Positions 704 to 9,854 of a DNA stretch of 23,906 bases are shown here, one piece after another. The DNA comes from a virus, in the IMG/VR virus record IMGVR_UViG_3300034375_007836, positions 1-23,906 of that record; one strand, 5' to 3'. The position numbers and the translations under genes are program-made. Positions within the stretch are counted from its first letter, which is position 1; each line of letters opens with the position of its first letter. The notes below the pieces were generated by a model. It searched no databases, was not told the origin of the DNA, and worked only from the letters and a program-made list of their open reading frames with translations.

Positions 704-1051
704 ATGCCTACTATAAACGTACCAAAGAACATTCAGCTCATAGCCCAAAGAGCTATCGATTATAATCTATCCCTCCCGATGAGTAAGAGAGCGGCCTATA
801 AGGATTCAGAGAAGGGAGAGAGAGTTCCCGGTACTGGAATGAGAACCGCGAGAAGAATCGCTTCGGGTGCGGTTGACTTAGAGCAGCTTCAGTTAATGGA
901 TGCGTGGTTCGCTAGGCATGGAGAAGCGGAGGAGGAGAGCCTCGCGCGTAGAGATAAGACATCCAAGGCAGCAATTGCATGGGCCTTATGGGGAGGAACC
1001 CCAGCTCGGAGATGGGTAAAGCAAGCTATAAAGAAGCTTGAAAACAGATAA
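704..1051 (+). CDS. Conserved phage-type small protein with WALWGG motif
   Basis: This is one of only two rightward genes in the window. An in-frame TTG at 695 extends the frame, but the ATG at 704 has AGGA nine bases upstream and is the better start, giving 115 residues. The protein is basic and helical. Residues about 44-62 hold a GxGMRTARRIASG pattern, residues about 67-74 a DAWFARHG segment, and residues about 90-102 IAWALWGGTPARRW. I recall this RAxxLA ... FxRH ... WALWGG layout from short domains in other phage proteins, but its function is unknown to me. The last codons contain the first ACAGAT repeat of the putative origin (1044-1049), so gene and origin overlap. A possible promoter (TTGGAT at 648-653, CATAAT at 672-677) is weak. 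Confidence 0.75.
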   Translation: MPTINVPKNIQLIAQRAIDYNLSLPMSKRAAYKDSEKGERVPGTGMRTARRIASGAVDLEQLQLMDAWFARHGEAEEESLARRDKTSKAAIAWALWGGTPARRWVKQAIKKLENR

Positions 1052-1101
1052 CCGCGCTCTAAATACAGATGATAACAGATGATATACAGATGAAAACAGA
1101 T
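1044..1101 (+). repeat. Left iteron array (ACAGAT x5)
   Basis: Copies lie at 1044-1049, 1065-1070, 1075-1080, 1086-1091 and 1096-1101. The middle copies extend to ACAGATGATA or ACAGATGAAA; the innermost reads ACAGATACCA. A degenerate CCAGAT follows at 1103-1108. The outermost copy is inside the last codons of the rightward gene. The slot between the first and second copies (about one turn) is empty, which accounts for the 21-base step. Confidence 0.9.
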
Positions 1102-1170
1102 ACCAGATTCTCCTATTACTTCGGTGTTGCCTTAGGTATAGCTTGTTTTTTAGCTTCCTACGTACTTCGG

Positions 1171-1228
1171 CCCTATATATAATATAATTACTACTATTAA
1201 AAAAGTATTCTATATATAGATTATAGGG
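1171..1228. other. AT-rich core with CCCTATA/TATAGGG inverted repeat
   Basis: Almost only A and T between the short inverted ends CCCTATA (1171-1177) and TATAGGG (1222-1228). It includes TATAAT-like hexamers at 1178-1183 and 1183-1188 and an A6 run at 1199-1204. It sits near the centre of the mirrored repeats, where an origin would be expected to melt. It could also hold promoters; no good -35 box was found. Confidence 0.55.
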
Positions 1229-1287
1229 AGAATATCGGTTTTTTTGGCTACACTTACGAAGCTATCGAGGCTATAACAGATTAGGGT

Positions 1288-1345
1288 ATCTGTAATCATC
1301 TGTATTTTATCTGTAATCATCTGTATAATCTATCGAAGTATCTGT
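1288..1345 (-). repeat. Right iteron array (ATCTGT x5, inverted)
   Basis: Copies lie at 1288-1293, 1298-1303, 1309-1314, 1319-1324 and 1340-1345. Read on the minus strand they give ACAGAT followed by ACCC, GATT, AAAA, GATT and ACTT. The innermost copies of both arrays share the ACC extension. A degenerate ATCTAT at 1328-1333 partly fills the empty slot. One additional copy in the opposite orientation lies at 1276-1281, making a small inverted pair with 1288-1293. Confidence 0.9.
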
Positions 1346-1405: not shown

Positions 1406-1439
1406 CAAACCCCAAGGGGAGAGAAGCCCTTGAGGTTTG
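1406..1439 (-). terminator. Rho-independent terminator of the replication operon
   Basis: Thirteen bases at 1406-1418 (CAAACCCCAAGGG) pair with 1427-1439 (CCCTTGAGGTTTG) with one C/A mismatch, around an 8-base loop. On the minus strand the stem is followed by TTTTTTT. It lies 86 bases past the stop of the VapE gene and would protect the origin from leftward transcription. The remaining intergenic sequence (1346-1405 and 1440-1524) shows nothing else I can name. Confidence 0.8.
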
Positions 1440-1524: not shown

Positions 1525-2787
1525 TTATTTTAATCTCCAAACTCTAGTTCCTTCGGATACTACCTGCTCATATCCATAGTCTCTAGCGATCTGAGCGATC
1601 CTTCGCGCATTACCTGAATGTTGCTGGGATACTGGAAGCTCTATCTCCTTCATAATCATCGAGGTAGTATTCTTCCCAGATACAATGGCATCCCGTACCT
1701 GTAGTGCCCAAGGATCATCGATTATGTAAGCTTGCTGGAGATGGGATAGCATCGCTTGAGAATCGCGCTCCAGATGCCATATCTCTCTATCTCTGAGAGC
1801 CTCCATAGCCTCAGCGAATATTTGATCTCGCCAAGTTCTTAGATAATCCGTATCGATACTTCCCGTACACGTGATAGGCCATACCCTTCTCTCTGGTCCA
1901 TCGCTAAGGAACTGATAGTTATTCGAGGTTCCAGCGAATACCACTCTCCTTTGATAGCTCTTAGGGAACTGTTGATATGATGGCCTGAACTTATCGGATG
2001 CGCTAGATATGAATGCTTTGAAGTTATCCGCGGTTCTTCCCTGTAGCGAATGGAGCTCTGCGAGTTCCCATAGCCAAGTCTCCGAGGAATGAATAAGCTC
2101 TAATGAATCCTTCTTCGAGATATCGAGCGGAGAGTCAGCGAACCAAGCTTCCCCGATAAGAGTTTTTAACGCGGTAGACTTCCCTAATCCCTTCTCTCCA
2201 CAGAGTACGAGGAAGGTATCCATCTTACACCCCGGATAGATGATTCGAGCTACCAGAGATAGGACCCACTTACGAGACATCTCTCTAATAAGTTGTTTCG
2301 AACCCTTGATAACTTGAGCGCGGAATACTACTTCGAAAAGATCATCGATTCGATGGCTGCCATCCCACTTGAGACTATTCAAGTAATCTTTAATCGGTTC
2401 TTCGATATTCTGATAGGCTACCCGTAGAACTGCGCGCTTGATATCGTGAGATGGGTACTTTATCCGGTAGCATCTCTCTACATGTAATCCAATATCTTCG
2501 AGATGCGGATCCCAGAGCTCCTCTCCATTCCACTTAATTTTATTCGCGTGATCATTGAAGCATAGCGTAGCGAACTCTGGATCATTCTCCAATATAACCG
2601 CGAGATTATTACGATTCGCGAATGGTTTGATCGCTCTCTTGAGGTTCCCTTCTTTATCATACTGCGGAGAAGGCTTCTCCAACATATCCCACGTATCGAT
2701 ATCCGCTCCCTCTGGAGCGTGTTTATATTCTGCATCGATCCCCATCTCGGATGCGAGCTGGAGTAGTTTTCTCATGTTCTCATTCAT
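1525..2787 (-). CDS. VapE-family (virulence-associated E) replicative helicase
   Basis: A 420-residue protein of the VapE family, P-loop ATPases related to superfamily 3 helicases that replicate phages, satellites and plasmids. The Walker A motif GEKGLGKST is at residues 197-205, a Walker B-like WLWELAEL at 238-245, a sensor-like VVFAGTSNN at 282-290, and GPERRVWP at 297-304 carries the probable arginine finger. The upstream part (residues about 55-150) has the usual family features, including the YLNSLKWDGSHRIDDLF stretch. Residues about 375-420 look like a winged helix that could contact DNA. The start overlaps the previous stop as ATGA (2784-2787). The gene is last in its operon, next to the mirrored repeats, and is the best candidate for the helicase that unwinds them. 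Confidence 0.9.
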   Translation of the reverse strand: MNENMRKLLQLASEMGIDAEYKHAPEGADIDTWDMLEKPSPQYDKEGNLKRAIKPFANRNNLAVILENDPEFATLCFNDHANKIKWNGEELWDPHLEDIGLHVERCYRIKYPSHDIKRAVLRVAYQNIEEPIKDYLNSLKWDGSHRIDDLFEVVFRAQVIKGSKQLIREMSRKWVLSLVARIIYPGCKMDTFLVLCGEKGLGKSTALKTLIGEAWFADSPLDISKKDSLELIHSSETWLWELAELHSLQGRTADNFKAFISSASDKFRPSYQQFPKSYQRRVVFAGTSNNYQFLSDGPERRVWPITCTGSIDTDYLRTWRDQIFAEAMEALRDREIWHLERDSQAMLSHLQQAYIIDDPWALQVRDAIVSGKNTTSMIMKEIELPVSQQHSGNARRIAQIARDYGYEQVVSEGTRVWRLK

Positions 2788-3074: not shown

Positions 3075-3371
3075 TTATTTAAGTTGTTTTTCAGCTCTCC
3101 TTCTGTATCGAGTAGTAGCGAGCTGGTATTCTACTATCGACTCCATTGTAGACTTAATGATTTGATCGAACTCCTGTTCATTTCGTGCGAGCGCATCACA
3201 TATCACGATCCACGAATCCAAGCGAGGTAAAGTTCTACCCTGCATCCATCTTAATATCGTACTCTTAGGGATTCCGGCTTTATCCTCTAGTATATCGAGG
3301 TTCCACTTACGAACTTCGATATATCTGAATAGTCTCATTCCCCAAGGAGTTAAAGTTTTAGGCATTCTCAT
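3075..3371 (-). CDS. XRE/Cro-type helix-turn-helix DNA-binding protein
   Basis: The frame is open from 3404, but the start that fits is the ATG at 3369-3371: GGAGG lies about 8 bases upstream and it overlaps the primase stop as ATGA. That gives 98 residues. Residues about 6-55 form a helix-turn-helix domain of the lambda-repressor-like fold, with the recognition pattern AGIPKSTILRWMQGRTLP. The rest is a helical, basic C-terminal tail. It could be an operon repressor or the protein that binds the ACAGAT arrays; being between primase and helicase favours a replication role, by inference only. A lone ACAGAT occurs at 3373-3378, inside its own leader, but single copies occur elsewhere at about chance frequency. 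Confidence 0.8.
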   Translation of the reverse strand: MRMPKTLTPWGMRLFRYIEVRKWNLDILEDKAGIPKSTILRWMQGRTLPRLDSWIVICDALARNEQEFDQIIKSTMESIVEYQLATTRYRRRAEKQLK

Positions 3372-4219
3372 AACAGATCCTCCAGTTTGCCCCACCATGT
3401 ACATTTATTCGCGCGGTTACAGTGAGGCCATAAAACCGCGTGAGGAAGCGAAGGATCGATAGAGAAGTAAACCTCATTCTCTCCACAGCTAGGGCACCGG
3501 ATACCGCGAGCCATATTACCCTCGACATTTGCCCCAGCTTTATTCGCTACTCCCATTCTAAATTCTGGATTATGGAATAGAGCCTCGATTCCCATTTTTT
3601 GTCCTTCTTTGCGCGAAGTCCATCTCTGGTATCTTCGAACAATCTTCGGAGCCTCGATGGGAATATGGGAGTAATCGAGATCGAAGTAGTTCCCAGTATG
3701 GTTATCGAATACCTCATGCACTTCCGAAGCTCCCTCATAATCAGGATGAGCGAATCGATAATACATTCGTGCACAATCGGTAAGAGCATTCGAATCCGGT
3801 TTTCCTACTGCGATAATCAGATCCCAGAACTCCTTAGCGGCCTTCGCTGCTCGCTTCCAGTCCTGAGCTGGTATAGGATTCTTCAGAGGAAGGATTACTC
3901 TATACTTATGATGGGCTTCGGAATGGGAGAAGGAAGTATGGAATAGATAATCATAATCTAAGAAGTTGTTATGGAATGCTATATCCGTACCATCATCCAT
4001 ATCGAATACTAGGCAAGAGATGAACCGCGCATTCGCTCCAGATCTACTTCCATCGAAGCTAGTAGGACTCCATAGAGGTAGAGTATTCTTCTGGGTTACA
4101 GGATAAGGTACTGCTGGCATCAGAAGCCCTCTACCCAGATCTCTCCGGGATACCTCATGAGAGATGGGGATCCTCGCGTATCGATTGGAGAATAAAGATA
4201 TCTTGAATCGTTTATCCAT
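3368..4219 (-). CDS. Archaeo-eukaryotic-type primase (PrimPol) with zinc finger
   Basis: This protein makes primers, and possibly DNA, for phage replication. Numbering from the first Met of the open frame (4222), residues 73-77 (FDMDD) give the metal-binding acidic pair, residues about 97-112 (SFSHSEAHHKYRVILP) the nucleotide-binding sxH-type motif followed by the typical RVILPL strand, and D149 in DCARMYYRF is the third acidic position. The C terminus has CxxC at 243-246 and Cys at 268 and 274, a likely zinc ribbon for template recognition. GGAGG lies 2 bases before the first ATG and 5 before the second, so 4219 (283 residues) is the preferred start. It lacks its own helicase domain; the VapE gene downstream probably supplies that, as split versions of fused primase-helicases do. 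Confidence 0.85.
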   Translation of the reverse strand: MDKRFKISLFSNRYARIPISHEVSRRDLGRGLLMPAVPYPVTQKNTLPLWSPTSFDGSRSGANARFISCLVFDMDDGTDIAFHNNFLDYDYLFHTSFSHSEAHHKYRVILPLKNPIPAQDWKRAAKAAKEFWDLIIAVGKPDSNALTDCARMYYRFAHPDYEGASEVHEVFDNHTGNYFDLDYSHIPIEAPKIVRRYQRWTSRKEGQKMGIEALFHNPEFRMGVANKAGANVEGNMARGIRCPSCGENEVYFSIDPSLPHAVLWPHCNRANKCTWWGKLEDLL

Positions 4220-4847
4220 CATCCCCTCCGAATAATCTGAGTTGTCTGGAATGCTTCTCGAAGCGTGCTACCGCTTTCGAATGATAATCGGGATCGATCT
4301 CCCAAGCATCCAGAGAATATCCAGCATCATAGCAAGCGAGCGCGATACTTCCCGATCCGAGATGAGTATCCAGTATTCTATCCCCTTCCTTCGCGAATTT
4401 ATCCAGTAGCCATCTGTAGAGTTGGAGAGGCTTCTGAGTAGGATGGATCTTTCCCTTCGTTCGATTATCGAATCGGAAGATCGGAGCTGGTTTATTGTAC
4501 GAAGTCCAAGCCATCTCCCATCCTGAGAAGTTCTCCCAAGGTTGGACCTTATCCCAAGCGATTACGCAGCGAGTAGGAGGGAGATCGAAGTAGTTTCCTC
4601 CCCATATAATCTGCTCTTTACTCACTCGGAAGAGCTCCGAGAAGTATTCTGGAGAAGGAGCGGTATCCCATCGATCGATCTTCGTATCTCGATTAAGAGT
4701 TCTATTTTTGAGCTTCCCGGAACCATTGAACGCGCTCTTCGTGTCCACTCCATAGGGAGGATCTACGATAGCGAGATCGTACTGGTTATCCTTCATCTCT
4801 CTCATCGCTTCCAGAGAGCATCCCAGATTCAGATTAATATTACCCAT
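4212..4847 (-). CDS. DNA methyltransferase (N6-adenine or N4-cytosine, beta class)
   Basis: A 211-residue S-adenosylmethionine-dependent methyltransferase. The catalytic DPPY motif is at residues 29-32 and comes before the cofactor-binding motif (ILDTHLGSGSIALAC, residues 158-172), an order typical of the beta class. HPTQKPL at 135-141 is the usual motif preceding the cofactor site. There is no matching restriction enzyme nearby, so this is an orphan enzyme. Protection from host restriction or marking of phage DNA are likely uses. The target sequence cannot be read from the protein. GGAGG is 5 bases before the ATG, and the ends overlap RusA by 8 bases and the primase by up to 11. Confidence 0.9.
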   Translation of the reverse strand: MGNINLNLGCSLEAMREMKDNQYDLAIVDPPYGVDTKSAFNGSGKLKNRTLNRDTKIDRWDTAPSPEYFSELFRVSKEQIIWGGNYFDLPPTRCVIAWDKVQPWENFSGWEMAWTSYNKPAPIFRFDNRTKGKIHPTQKPLQLYRWLLDKFAKEGDRILDTHLGSGSIALACYDAGYSLDAWEIDPDYHSKAVARFEKHSRQLRLFGGDDG

Positions 4848-5289
4848 CTTCCCTCCATTCGTGAATGGTGAATAGAGTATGGGGATCCTCCGAGCGCGAT
4901 GCGTAGTAATCTTCGCATGAGATACACACTACTCGATTATCATCGATCCAGATCTCGCTCTGAGTGATGATATCGAGTACCATCTTCAGTAGATTATCGA
5001 TATCTGGCTTCGTGGTCTTATAGATTCTCCCTTCTGGAGTATCTCCGGCCTTAAGGAATAATCTTTTCGGTCTCGGAGATACGAACGTTACATTCACGCG
5101 GAGAGGCCCTTCTAGCGGCTTCCAGTTCTCTCCTTTCGCTGCTACGAGATGAGCGATCTGATCGTTCTTATATTGTCTGGAGCTCTTAGCGGTGTACGCT
5201 CTACCGCTTCTAGTGAATCGAGGCCTACCCATCGGAACTGGAGTTCCTTGGAGAATCCCCTGATATACTTGTAACCATCCCATAATCAT
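4840..5289 (-). CDS. rusA: RusA-type Holliday junction resolvase
   Basis: A 149-residue endonuclease of the RusA family, which cuts four-way DNA junctions formed in recombination and late replication. The signature KPDIDNLLKMVLD (residues 94-106) carries the two acidic metal ligands and the conserved Lys 102, and the second acidic pair is in WIDDNRV (residues 114-120). Length and order match the family. The ATG at 5287-5289 overlaps the upstream stop as ATGA; an internal ATG at 5281-5283 is equally well placed for the GGAG leader. It probably resolves branched or concatemeric phage DNA before packaging. Confidence 0.92.
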   Translation of the reverse strand: MIMGWLQVYQGILQGTPVPMGRPRFTRSGRAYTAKSSRQYKNDQIAHLVAAKGENWKPLEGPLRVNVTFVSPRPKRLFLKAGDTPEGRIYKTTKPDIDNLLKMVLDIITQSEIWIDDNRVVCISCEDYYASRSEDPHTLFTIHEWREDG

Positions 5290-5771
5290 CTCTCCAGTTC
5301 TATCATCTGAGATAGTTCTTCATACTTCTCGAACCACTCATCCACGAATATAATCTTACATATTCTAACCAGAGATGAGATATTCGGATACATTTCTCCT
5401 GCGATCCACTTCGCGATGGTGGCCTTCGTGAGATCTGAGAGAGAAGCTAGATCCTCATGAGTGAAGTTCGAATCGGTTATATATTCTCCAATCGTTCGAG
5501 CGAACTGTGGATTCTGTAAAGCATCCTGTTTAGAGTATAACCATAACTTCGCTTCCAGTGCATCCGCTCCAGTAAACTCTCGCTTATAGATAAGGCCTTC
5601 TCTCATGAGCTGCGCTTCCCATACCCACATGCAATAGATCGGACTCCAATACCGACATACTACTCCAGTATCCCCATTAATATCGAATCTCTGTTCATCC
5701 CTTCGCTGCCCTGAGTTCTCTCGATATTGTGTTCTTCCATTTCTTCGTATATATGTTCTTCTGTAACTCAT
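5286..5771 (-). CDS. HTH protein with unknown N-terminal domain
   Basis: A 161-residue protein. Residues about 96-142 form an XRE-type helix-turn-helix (YITDSNFTHEDLASLSDL, then KATIAKWIAGEMYPNISSL). The N-terminal 95 residues start very basic (RRTYIRRNGRTQYR) and then become rich in aromatic residues with two Cys (residues 39 and 47); I recognise no domain there. It may regulate the early operon or bind the origin. The operon thus carries two HTH proteins with similar recognition helices, which could be distant paralogues. GGAGG lies before the ATG, and both ends overlap their neighbours as ATGA. Confidence 0.75.
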   Translation of the reverse strand: MSYRRTYIRRNGRTQYRENSGQRRDEQRFDINGDTGVVCRYWSPIYCMWVWEAQLMREGLIYKREFTGADALEAKLWLYSKQDALQNPQFARTIGEYITDSNFTHEDLASLSDLTKATIAKWIAGEMYPNISSLVRICKIIFVDEWFEKYEELSQMIELER

Positions 5772-8159: not shown

Positions 8160-9854
8160 CTAATCTCTGAGATTTACGAGAGGATTATCTTCGAGCTGAA
8201 GAATGAATCTCCATCGGTTGTTTGACCATGATTTACTCATAATCTGACATTTGTGATTATCATATCCGATTCTTTCCGAAGTGAGAGAAACAATATCTCC
8301 GAGATCCAGATATCCATACTTCGGGGCAGCTGAGATCTCTATCGCGTATGCTGGGAGAGCGTGGTAACGAATCTTATCTCTCGCGATTCGAACCGCGGTA
8401 TCCAGATCCCATACGAATGGAGCCTCGATAATCAGTTCACGAAGGCCATACCGGGAGAAGGAGATCTCCGCGAGCGCATCCGTATAAGTTAACCCGATCT
8501 CCTCAGTAGCATCGGGATCGATGATTACCTTCGAGCGATAGTTCCCTTGATTACCTTCGTATCCGAAGCGAACCGTTATCTTATTGTATATCTCCTGTTC
8601 GAGCGGACTTAATGGAGAGATGATTTGGAGCTCTCCCGAATCATAGAGATAATGAGTAGGTTCGATGGTTTGGGAGTACATATACAGATCTAACGTAGGC
8701 TTAATCCCCTTCGATCCATTCGTTATCTCGATGGGGAGAAGCTCCCAGATATTACTCTGAATCCAATCAAGAGCGGATACTTCTATATCGTTTACATACC
8801 CAGAGAACTTGTAACGATTGAGAACTCCTTCGAGGCCTCTCCACGCTCCGAGATCATAATCTAACCCCGATAACTGGAGAACGAATAGAGAGAGATCTAC
8901 TGCGGACTTGAGAGAACCATTCGAGAAGGGATTCGGATGCGCTCCATCAGATTCTCCCCATGAAGCATAATAACCGAAGGAGAGCTCCGGTGAGGAAAGC
9001 TGGAAGCTATTATCTTCGAGATTCGTTCCCTCTGGAGTTCCTACTCCTGTAACGTAATAAGGGACATAAGAGAGAGTTTTACCACGAGAATCTACCAGAG
9101 ATCTCACGCGGTTAACCATATTACCTCCGTTACCATCATATACTCGAACCTTCCCTCCGATTACTTCGTGATAGGCTACAAGGAAGTACTGGGTGAGGAG
9201 AGTTGGAGTTCCTCCAGCTTGATAGGCTGGAGAAGTTGGTATCTGGTTCTCTGTAGTGAGATTCCCATCGGAACTCTCCAGAGTAGCGATCCCTAGATCC
9301 CCGAATACGAATGGAACGACCTTTCCCTTAGATTGTTCGATAATCCCGATAGAGAACTCCTCCTCTCTAATGATATGATGAGTTCCTACTAGCTTAATAT
9401 TCCGAATATTCGTACTATTCTCGATGGAGAAGGAGATAGTTCCTAACTGAGCTGCTGGGTCTCCGAAGATGGCATCCAATACGCGGCCCTTAAATATCCC
9501 GATTCGATCTTGGATGGTGAAGCTCGTTTTCCCTTCGAATACGATAACCATCGAGAGCTCACAGGAAGCATCGTTAAGAGTTCTTCCTCGCTTCCATTCT
9601 CGAATCCAGTCTACTTCTTCGAATACCAGCTCCATTGAGATAGTATTCGCTTCGAGATCTACTCCTACCCTCTGAGATTGGAGATTGACATCGGGATCCG
9701 ATAAGCCTCCGCGATATGGGATAATCTGATTCTCCGCGATATCTTCGATCTGTATCGGGATAGTAGAGAATCGATATGGAGTTCCATAATAATCGATCTC
9801 CAATAGGAAGCAGATATCCCCTTGGAGAATCTCACTGCGCTTTATCGAATCCAT
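8160..9854 (-). CDS. Tail tip/hub-like structural protein
   Basis: A 564-residue beta-rich protein placed directly after the large tail protein and before lysis genes, where siphophages carry tail-tip or hub proteins. The N-terminal 170 residues read like a tail-hub domain (GDICFLLEIDYYGTPYRF, then VDWIREWKRG). The C terminus has a stretch reminiscent of hub or tail-associated proteins (YLDLGDIVSLTSERIGYDN, near residues 520-538). I see no lysozyme or peptidase motif. It probably sits at the tail tip and helps contact the cell. The start shares TAATG with the previous stop. The exact family is uncertain. Confidence 0.7.
   Translation of the reverse strand: MDSIKRSEILQGDICFLLEIDYYGTPYRFSTIPIQIEDIAENQIIPYRGGLSDPDVNLQSQRVGVDLEANTISMELVFEEVDWIREWKRGRTLNDASCELSMVIVFEGKTSFTIQDRIGIFKGRVLDAIFGDPAAQLGTISFSIENSTNIRNIKLVGTHHIIREEEFSIGIIEQSKGKVVPFVFGDLGIATLESSDGNLTTENQIPTSPAYQAGGTPTLLTQYFLVAYHEVIGGKVRVYDGNGGNMVNRVRSLVDSRGKTLSYVPYYVTGVGTPEGTNLEDNSFQLSSPELSFGYYASWGESDGAHPNPFSNGSLKSAVDLSLFVLQLSGLDYDLGAWRGLEGVLNRYKFSGYVNDIEVSALDWIQSNIWELLPIEITNGSKGIKPTLDLYMYSQTIEPTHYLYDSGELQIISPLSPLEQEIYNKITVRFGYEGNQGNYRSKVIIDPDATEEIGLTYTDALAEISFSRYGLRELIIEAPFVWDLDTAVRIARDKIRYHALPAYAIEISAAPKYGYLDLGDIVSLTSERIGYDNHKCQIMSKSWSNNRWRFILQLEDNPLVNLRD

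Follow-up and report, generated by a model that had tools for sequence, protein, structure and literature searches.

A conserved double inverted iteron array downstream of a VapE-type helicase gene in tailed phages, most likely a PICI-type replication origin of unusually regular geometry

PICI origins are located 3' of rep, always have an AT-rich region with an iteron set on either side, and function as replicons (PMC6092414). According to the authors of that study, this organization is common to PICIs and is found in no other known bacterial replicon (PMC6092414). SaPI origins are positioned directly downstream of rep, and their iterons are read by the C-terminal domain of Rep, apparently as two hexamers (PMC7581432). 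The locus analyzed here lies in a viral record 23,906 bp long (“the window”, i.e. the whole stretch of DNA that was studied). It is a real, conserved site that most likely serves as a PICI-type, VapE-driven replication origin with an unusually regular geometry.

All ten ACAGAT sites listed in an earlier, sequence-only reading of this DNA were found exactly where that reading had placed them. The left iteron array (1044..1101, + strand) comprises five copies with starts at 1044, 1065, 1075, 1086, and 1096, and the right array (1288..1345, - strand) comprises five inverted copies with starts at 1288, 1298, 1309, 1319, and 1340. Both arrays face inward, and homologous arms are present in relatives. 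The midpoint of all five left/right pairs is 1194.5, as had been claimed, and the description of the DNA between the repeats as non-palindromic was borne out (the proportion of positions complementary about the axis is 11/28 between sites and 32/93 in the center). ACAGAT occurs 27 times in the whole window (14.8 expected); the 16 copies outside the locus represent chance level, in agreement with the same reading. An eleventh copy (1276, + strand) was absent from its list. This copy is contained in a conserved AATCTG-type element (1271..1287) just inside the VapE-side arm, and its ATCTG is located 11 bp inside the innermost site. The ATCTG is retained in two relatives (L042 and L054) whose repeats are ACACTA; because it persists where the iterons have switched motif, the 1276 copy is probably not an iteron.

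Between the arms lies an AT-rich core (1165..1230), which is proposed to be a DNA-unwinding element on the basis of its base composition and of the AT-rich core at or near the center in relatives. The 40-bp A+T peak reaches 90% at the midpoint (dyad) of the arrays, and the GC content is 12.5% at 1180-1219; in relatives, the 40-bp AT peak is at or near the dyad. In L012, the core is missing and the inter-arm gap is 105 bp. At that locus (8208-8468), the arms are intact and ca. 87 bp of the center, including the AT core, are absent, which could reflect a real deletion or an assembly artefact. The array starts 180 bp past the VapE stop codon in the window, and a terminator-like hairpin with a T run (1406..1439, - strand) is situated between the two. 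A DnaA-box scan of the window returned matches at chance level only. DnaA-box-like words (TTATCCACA/TTATCAACA-like) were seen just outside the array in L008 (ca. 4495-4530) and L144 (ca. 1140-1170). The GC skew, which had been suggested as a check, had no clear turning point in this fragment, which has one dominant gene strand.

On one side of the site, a leftward replication operon ends; on the other lies a convergent gene encoding a 115-aa protein. The operon encodes an HTH protein, RusA, a methyltransferase, a primase-like protein, a second HTH protein, and VapE. The primase-like protein (PrimPol; 3368..4222, - strand) is a probable priming partner, given weak PHROG primase matches, its membership in the same operon, and its presence in most relatives. 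The conserved 115-aa protein (704..1051, + strand) converges on the array, and the last codons of its gene overlap with the outermost ACAGAT; the protein is 62-84% identical even where VapE is only ca. 47% identical. A PDB fold search with this protein yielded nothing significant, and viral predicted structures matched it to domains within prohead-protease and XkdF-like phage proteins. The position of the methyltransferase gene varies among relatives: in some it precedes VapE, and in others it separates VapE from the array or lies past the array (L017 7260-7886, L027 6061-6696, and others). Virion and lysis genes in the window include those for a major head protein, a tape measure, and an endolysin. 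A host search in GTDB genomes provided a single remote match, a Myxococcota MAG.

Relatives were gathered by VapE searches (45-100% identity), and more were obtained via a neighboring gene. The DNA downstream of VapE was scanned, with no fixed motif imposed, for any 5-mer whose copies make up two sets that face inward at 10-, 11-, 20-, or 21-bp steps. A double inverted array was present in 43 of 46 relatives, many of which are near-identical contigs (42 scored >8 and one exactly 8). No score above 8 was obtained in 96 upstream or within-gene control regions or in 920 dinucleotide shuffles, versus a score of 16 for the relatives L001 and L006, which carry the array of the window; a chance origin of the array is thus excluded. 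By the same scan, the array was absent in L027, L050, and L063, loci that end soon after VapE or hold inserted genes; irregular CAGAT copies are present in L063. The repeat word differs by clade, being ACAGAT, ACAGAT/TCAGAT (WCAGAT), ACACTA/ACAGTA (ACASTA), or ATACAC(C/G/T). All repeats of one locus switch together between clades, and the orientation and the 10/11/20/21-bp steps are unchanged. In distant lineages, a similar arrangement is built from GACAGAT, AATAAC, GTCCCA, or TGTTCC-type words. Extra site pairs, spaced ca. 7-9 bp apart, were observed beside the AT-rich core and inside the main arms in L105, L139, L146, L141, L144, and L032. Among 37 loci with VapE at ca. 30% identity, only L032, L078, and L105 displayed the strict geometry clearly; the matches in L109-L111 at this level of identity are directly adjacent GC-rich repeats. 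Phased facing arms were detected by the same scan in none of six cultured VapE phages. Few new lineages came from two additional viral scans aimed at independent motif switches.

The spacing of the repeats in relatives had been proposed as a check on the idea that exact placement is under selection. Within-arm steps are indeed nearly all 10, 11, 20, or 21 bp, but the mirror identity of the two arms is not family-wide. Exact mirror steps hold in close relatives of the window and in L036, L009, L042, L041, and L094, and they fail in L037-L039, L044-L051, L052, L054, and the distant clade. Selection for exact mirror spacing itself was therefore rejected for the family, the arms being unequal in, e.g., L037 (10,11,10 / 11,11,10) and L017 (10,10,10 / 10,10,21). 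In the larger clade of the window (VapEs ca. 70-100% identical), the arms are 191-194 bp apart from start to start, even though the center DNA is only ca. 50% identical there. In other groups, the gap is 203-204 or 184-209 bp. Because the gap varies in this way (191-194 bp in one clade, 184-209 bp elsewhere, and 105 bp in L012), the phase between arms is not conserved. Hence the notion that all ten sites occupy one helical face can be retained within each arm, but not between the arms. The distance from VapE to the array ranges from ca. 135 to ca. 1,120 bp among relatives. Taken together, the step and gap data indicate that what is constrained appears to be the helical phasing inside each arm, the facing orientation, and the approximate gap, rather than an exact mirror or a shared inter-arm phase.

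VapE (1525..2787, - strand) is an AAA+ helicase (Pfam PF05272, E=3.8e-60) and the proposed initiator, a role suggested by its match to PDB entry 7pds, by an AlphaFold model, and by the covariation described below. Comparisons by sequence (E=2.6e-35) and by fold (1.5e-22) establish that it is homologous to PriRep1 (7pds), which is described in the PDB as “similar to D. nodosus vapE”. In the AlphaFold model (mean pLDDT of 86), the C-terminal end forms a predicted winged helix (ca. residues 361-420), with a recognition helix at 391-403. The Walker A motif near residue 202 reads GEKGLGKST in the clade of the window. In L014, L017, L023, and L059 (the 46-49% clade), Arg replaces the glycine before the catalytic lysine (G-x-K-G-[LM]-R-K-S-T).

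Within the main clades, residue 395 of the recognition helix is Arg in 25 of 25 CAGAT-class VapEs, and the 19 others (ACASTA and TACACS classes) all have Lys. On a tree calculated from the helicase part only, the motif and residue 395 switch together at two independent places. An independent-pairs test on these two concordant switches gave p=0.5, so few switches leaving the formal covariation test without power. Among ca. 1,280 columns of six proteins, column 395 was the only one having the same clean swap in both clades. Singly, 15 and 32 of 400 VapE columns discriminated the clades, and three did so in both. Because about one such doubly discriminating column is expected by chance, the weight is carried by the identity of the swap and its location in the recognition helix. 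Arg395 accompanies CAGAT words in the distant L063, L139, L140, and L146 as well. A third motif change is found in L089, where Arg395 occurs with TAACAS repeats in an altered helix context; L144 also has Arg395 with another motif and an altered helix context, and L098 (Lys395) has mixed sites. Arg395 is accordingly put forward as a candidate specificity residue, as judged from sequence comparison.

An origin acted on by two facing oligomers, the leading idea of the sequence-only reading, emerged as the best-supported interpretation, because relatives conserve facing, phased arms beside VapE and because VapE is homologous to the PICI/SaPI initiator helicases. The site is very probably a tailed-phage replication origin organized like a PICI/SaPI origin, at which VapE would read the arrays and two facing hexamers would melt the core. 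We infer that VapE binds the arrays, assembles into hexamers, melts the DNA, and initiates replication in the following way. The C-terminal winged helix would recognize each hexamer site, at about one site per helical turn, such that VapE subunits would align on one face of each inward-facing arm. These subunits would assemble two head-to-head AAA+ hexamers flanking the ca. 190-bp center. The hexamers would then melt the AT-rich core, move onto the single strands, and power a pair of diverging forks, for which the neighboring primase-like protein would supply primers.

The site could also be an origin whose arrays are bound by another operon protein, with VapE recruited indirectly; the likeliest binders would be HTH5286 (5286-5771) or the 115-aa protein. 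Both are encoded in most relatives, HTH5286 occurring in almost as many as VapE, and in many lineages the 115-aa gene directly borders the array. However, neither protein has a column that switches with the motif alike in both clades, and the array is away from the 115-aa gene in L139, L141, and L146. HTH3075, the 89-aa protein, and the methyltransferase were undetected in some array-bearing lineages, and in SaPIs, the iterons are bound by the Rep protein itself (PMC7581432). Such an arrangement is thus considered unlikely, although its probability is appreciable. A transcription-control region for the flanking convergent genes would be in keeping with the intergenic location and the terminator-like hairpin on the VapE side. 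Promoter-like sites were at chance level, however, the genes converge on the site, and neither termination nor repression calls for two symmetric, phased arrays about an AT core; this explanation is very improbable.

A centromere-like partition site, or one for plasmid-prophage maintenance, had been offered as the alternative to an origin. The two sets of about five repeats in 10-11-bp steps do superficially resemble R1 parC. The repeats of parC point one way, whereas the arms here face each other. ParB_N turned up in just 2 of 21 records and not in the window, in a search confined to that partition family. In addition, the locus is downstream of VapE throughout, and the motif tracks VapE residue 395. 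The centromere alternative is accordingly disfavored, with very little probability assigned to it. Finally, inverted arms with 10-bp-spaced sites look like the arm-type integrase sites of an attP, and a recombination site or transposon-like ends might be envisaged. The tyrosine recombinase family PF00589 was detected in none of 20 related contigs of 24-30 kb, several of which may be incomplete (the control was positive in 14 of 14 genomes; the search was confined to this family). No core site was seen, and the AT-rich core and the linkage to VapE also argue against recombination, which is exceedingly improbable.

How self-loading helicases of the VapE/D5 group come to sit on duplex DNA as a pair of opposed hexamers is, to our knowledge, an unsettled question. 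The present family offers more than ten lineages that differ in the spelling of the sites but keep their facing orientation and helical spacing, together with a candidate specificity residue; this series renders the question of helicase placement directly testable. A further proposition, on which our judgment is evenly divided, is that these sites constitute a distinct class of phage origin, in which phased facing arms would set the register for two VapE helicases and the initiator and array would co-evolve via residue 395 while the geometry stays nearly fixed. If true, the PICI-type origin would extend to autonomous phages, and these loci would be a natural series for studying how self-loading helicases are positioned.

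Among other known systems, a functional analogy exists with SV40 T-antigen and papillomavirus E1, initiator helicases that form two hexamers on facing sites by an AT-rich stretch (mentioned in PMC7581432). Those proteins differ in having an unrelated N-terminal origin-binding domain, far fewer sites, and a compact core. In Listeria phage LWP01 and Corynebacterium phage IME1320_01, repeats are likewise present in the gap after the gene for a VapE-type primase-helicase, but their spacing and orientation are irregular, and the same scan found no phased facing arms. SCCmec Cch2 is a Primase_Cterm/D5-type helicase related to SaPI5 Rep, and its C-terminal domain binds short repeats just downstream of its own gene; it differs in having three direct-repeat iterons only, without paired facing arrays (PMC7581432).

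The likeness to PICI/SaPI origins is closer. The site is 3' of the gene for the initiator helicase (in relatives, sometimes beyond inserted genes), an AT-rich region lies between two sets of short iterons (matched to PICI by the published description), and the initiator is a VapE/Rep-type AAA+ helicase that matches PriRep1 and has a predicted C-terminal DNA-binding domain. The differences are that the helicase and primase-like genes are separate here, that inserted genes can part the array from the VapE gene, and that the arms are inverted, with sites at about every helical turn and a gap that is nearly fixed within clades, the PICI side of this last comparison being taken from the published description. 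Moreover, the carriers are phages with capsid, tail, and lysis genes, not satellites: a PICI element is a satellite with an integrase and an incomplete virion set, and here virion genes are present and 20 relatives contain no tyrosine integrase. The statement of the sequence-only reading that no phage origin with this geometry was known must therefore be divided, since the general layout is known from PICI/SaPI origins, but the phasing, the presence of this layout in the phage family, and the motif-residue covariation look new as far as the literature searched shows. The locus would thus extend an origin organization reported as unique to PICIs to a family of phages that carry virion genes of their own, an observation of relevance to the ancestry of satellite replicons.
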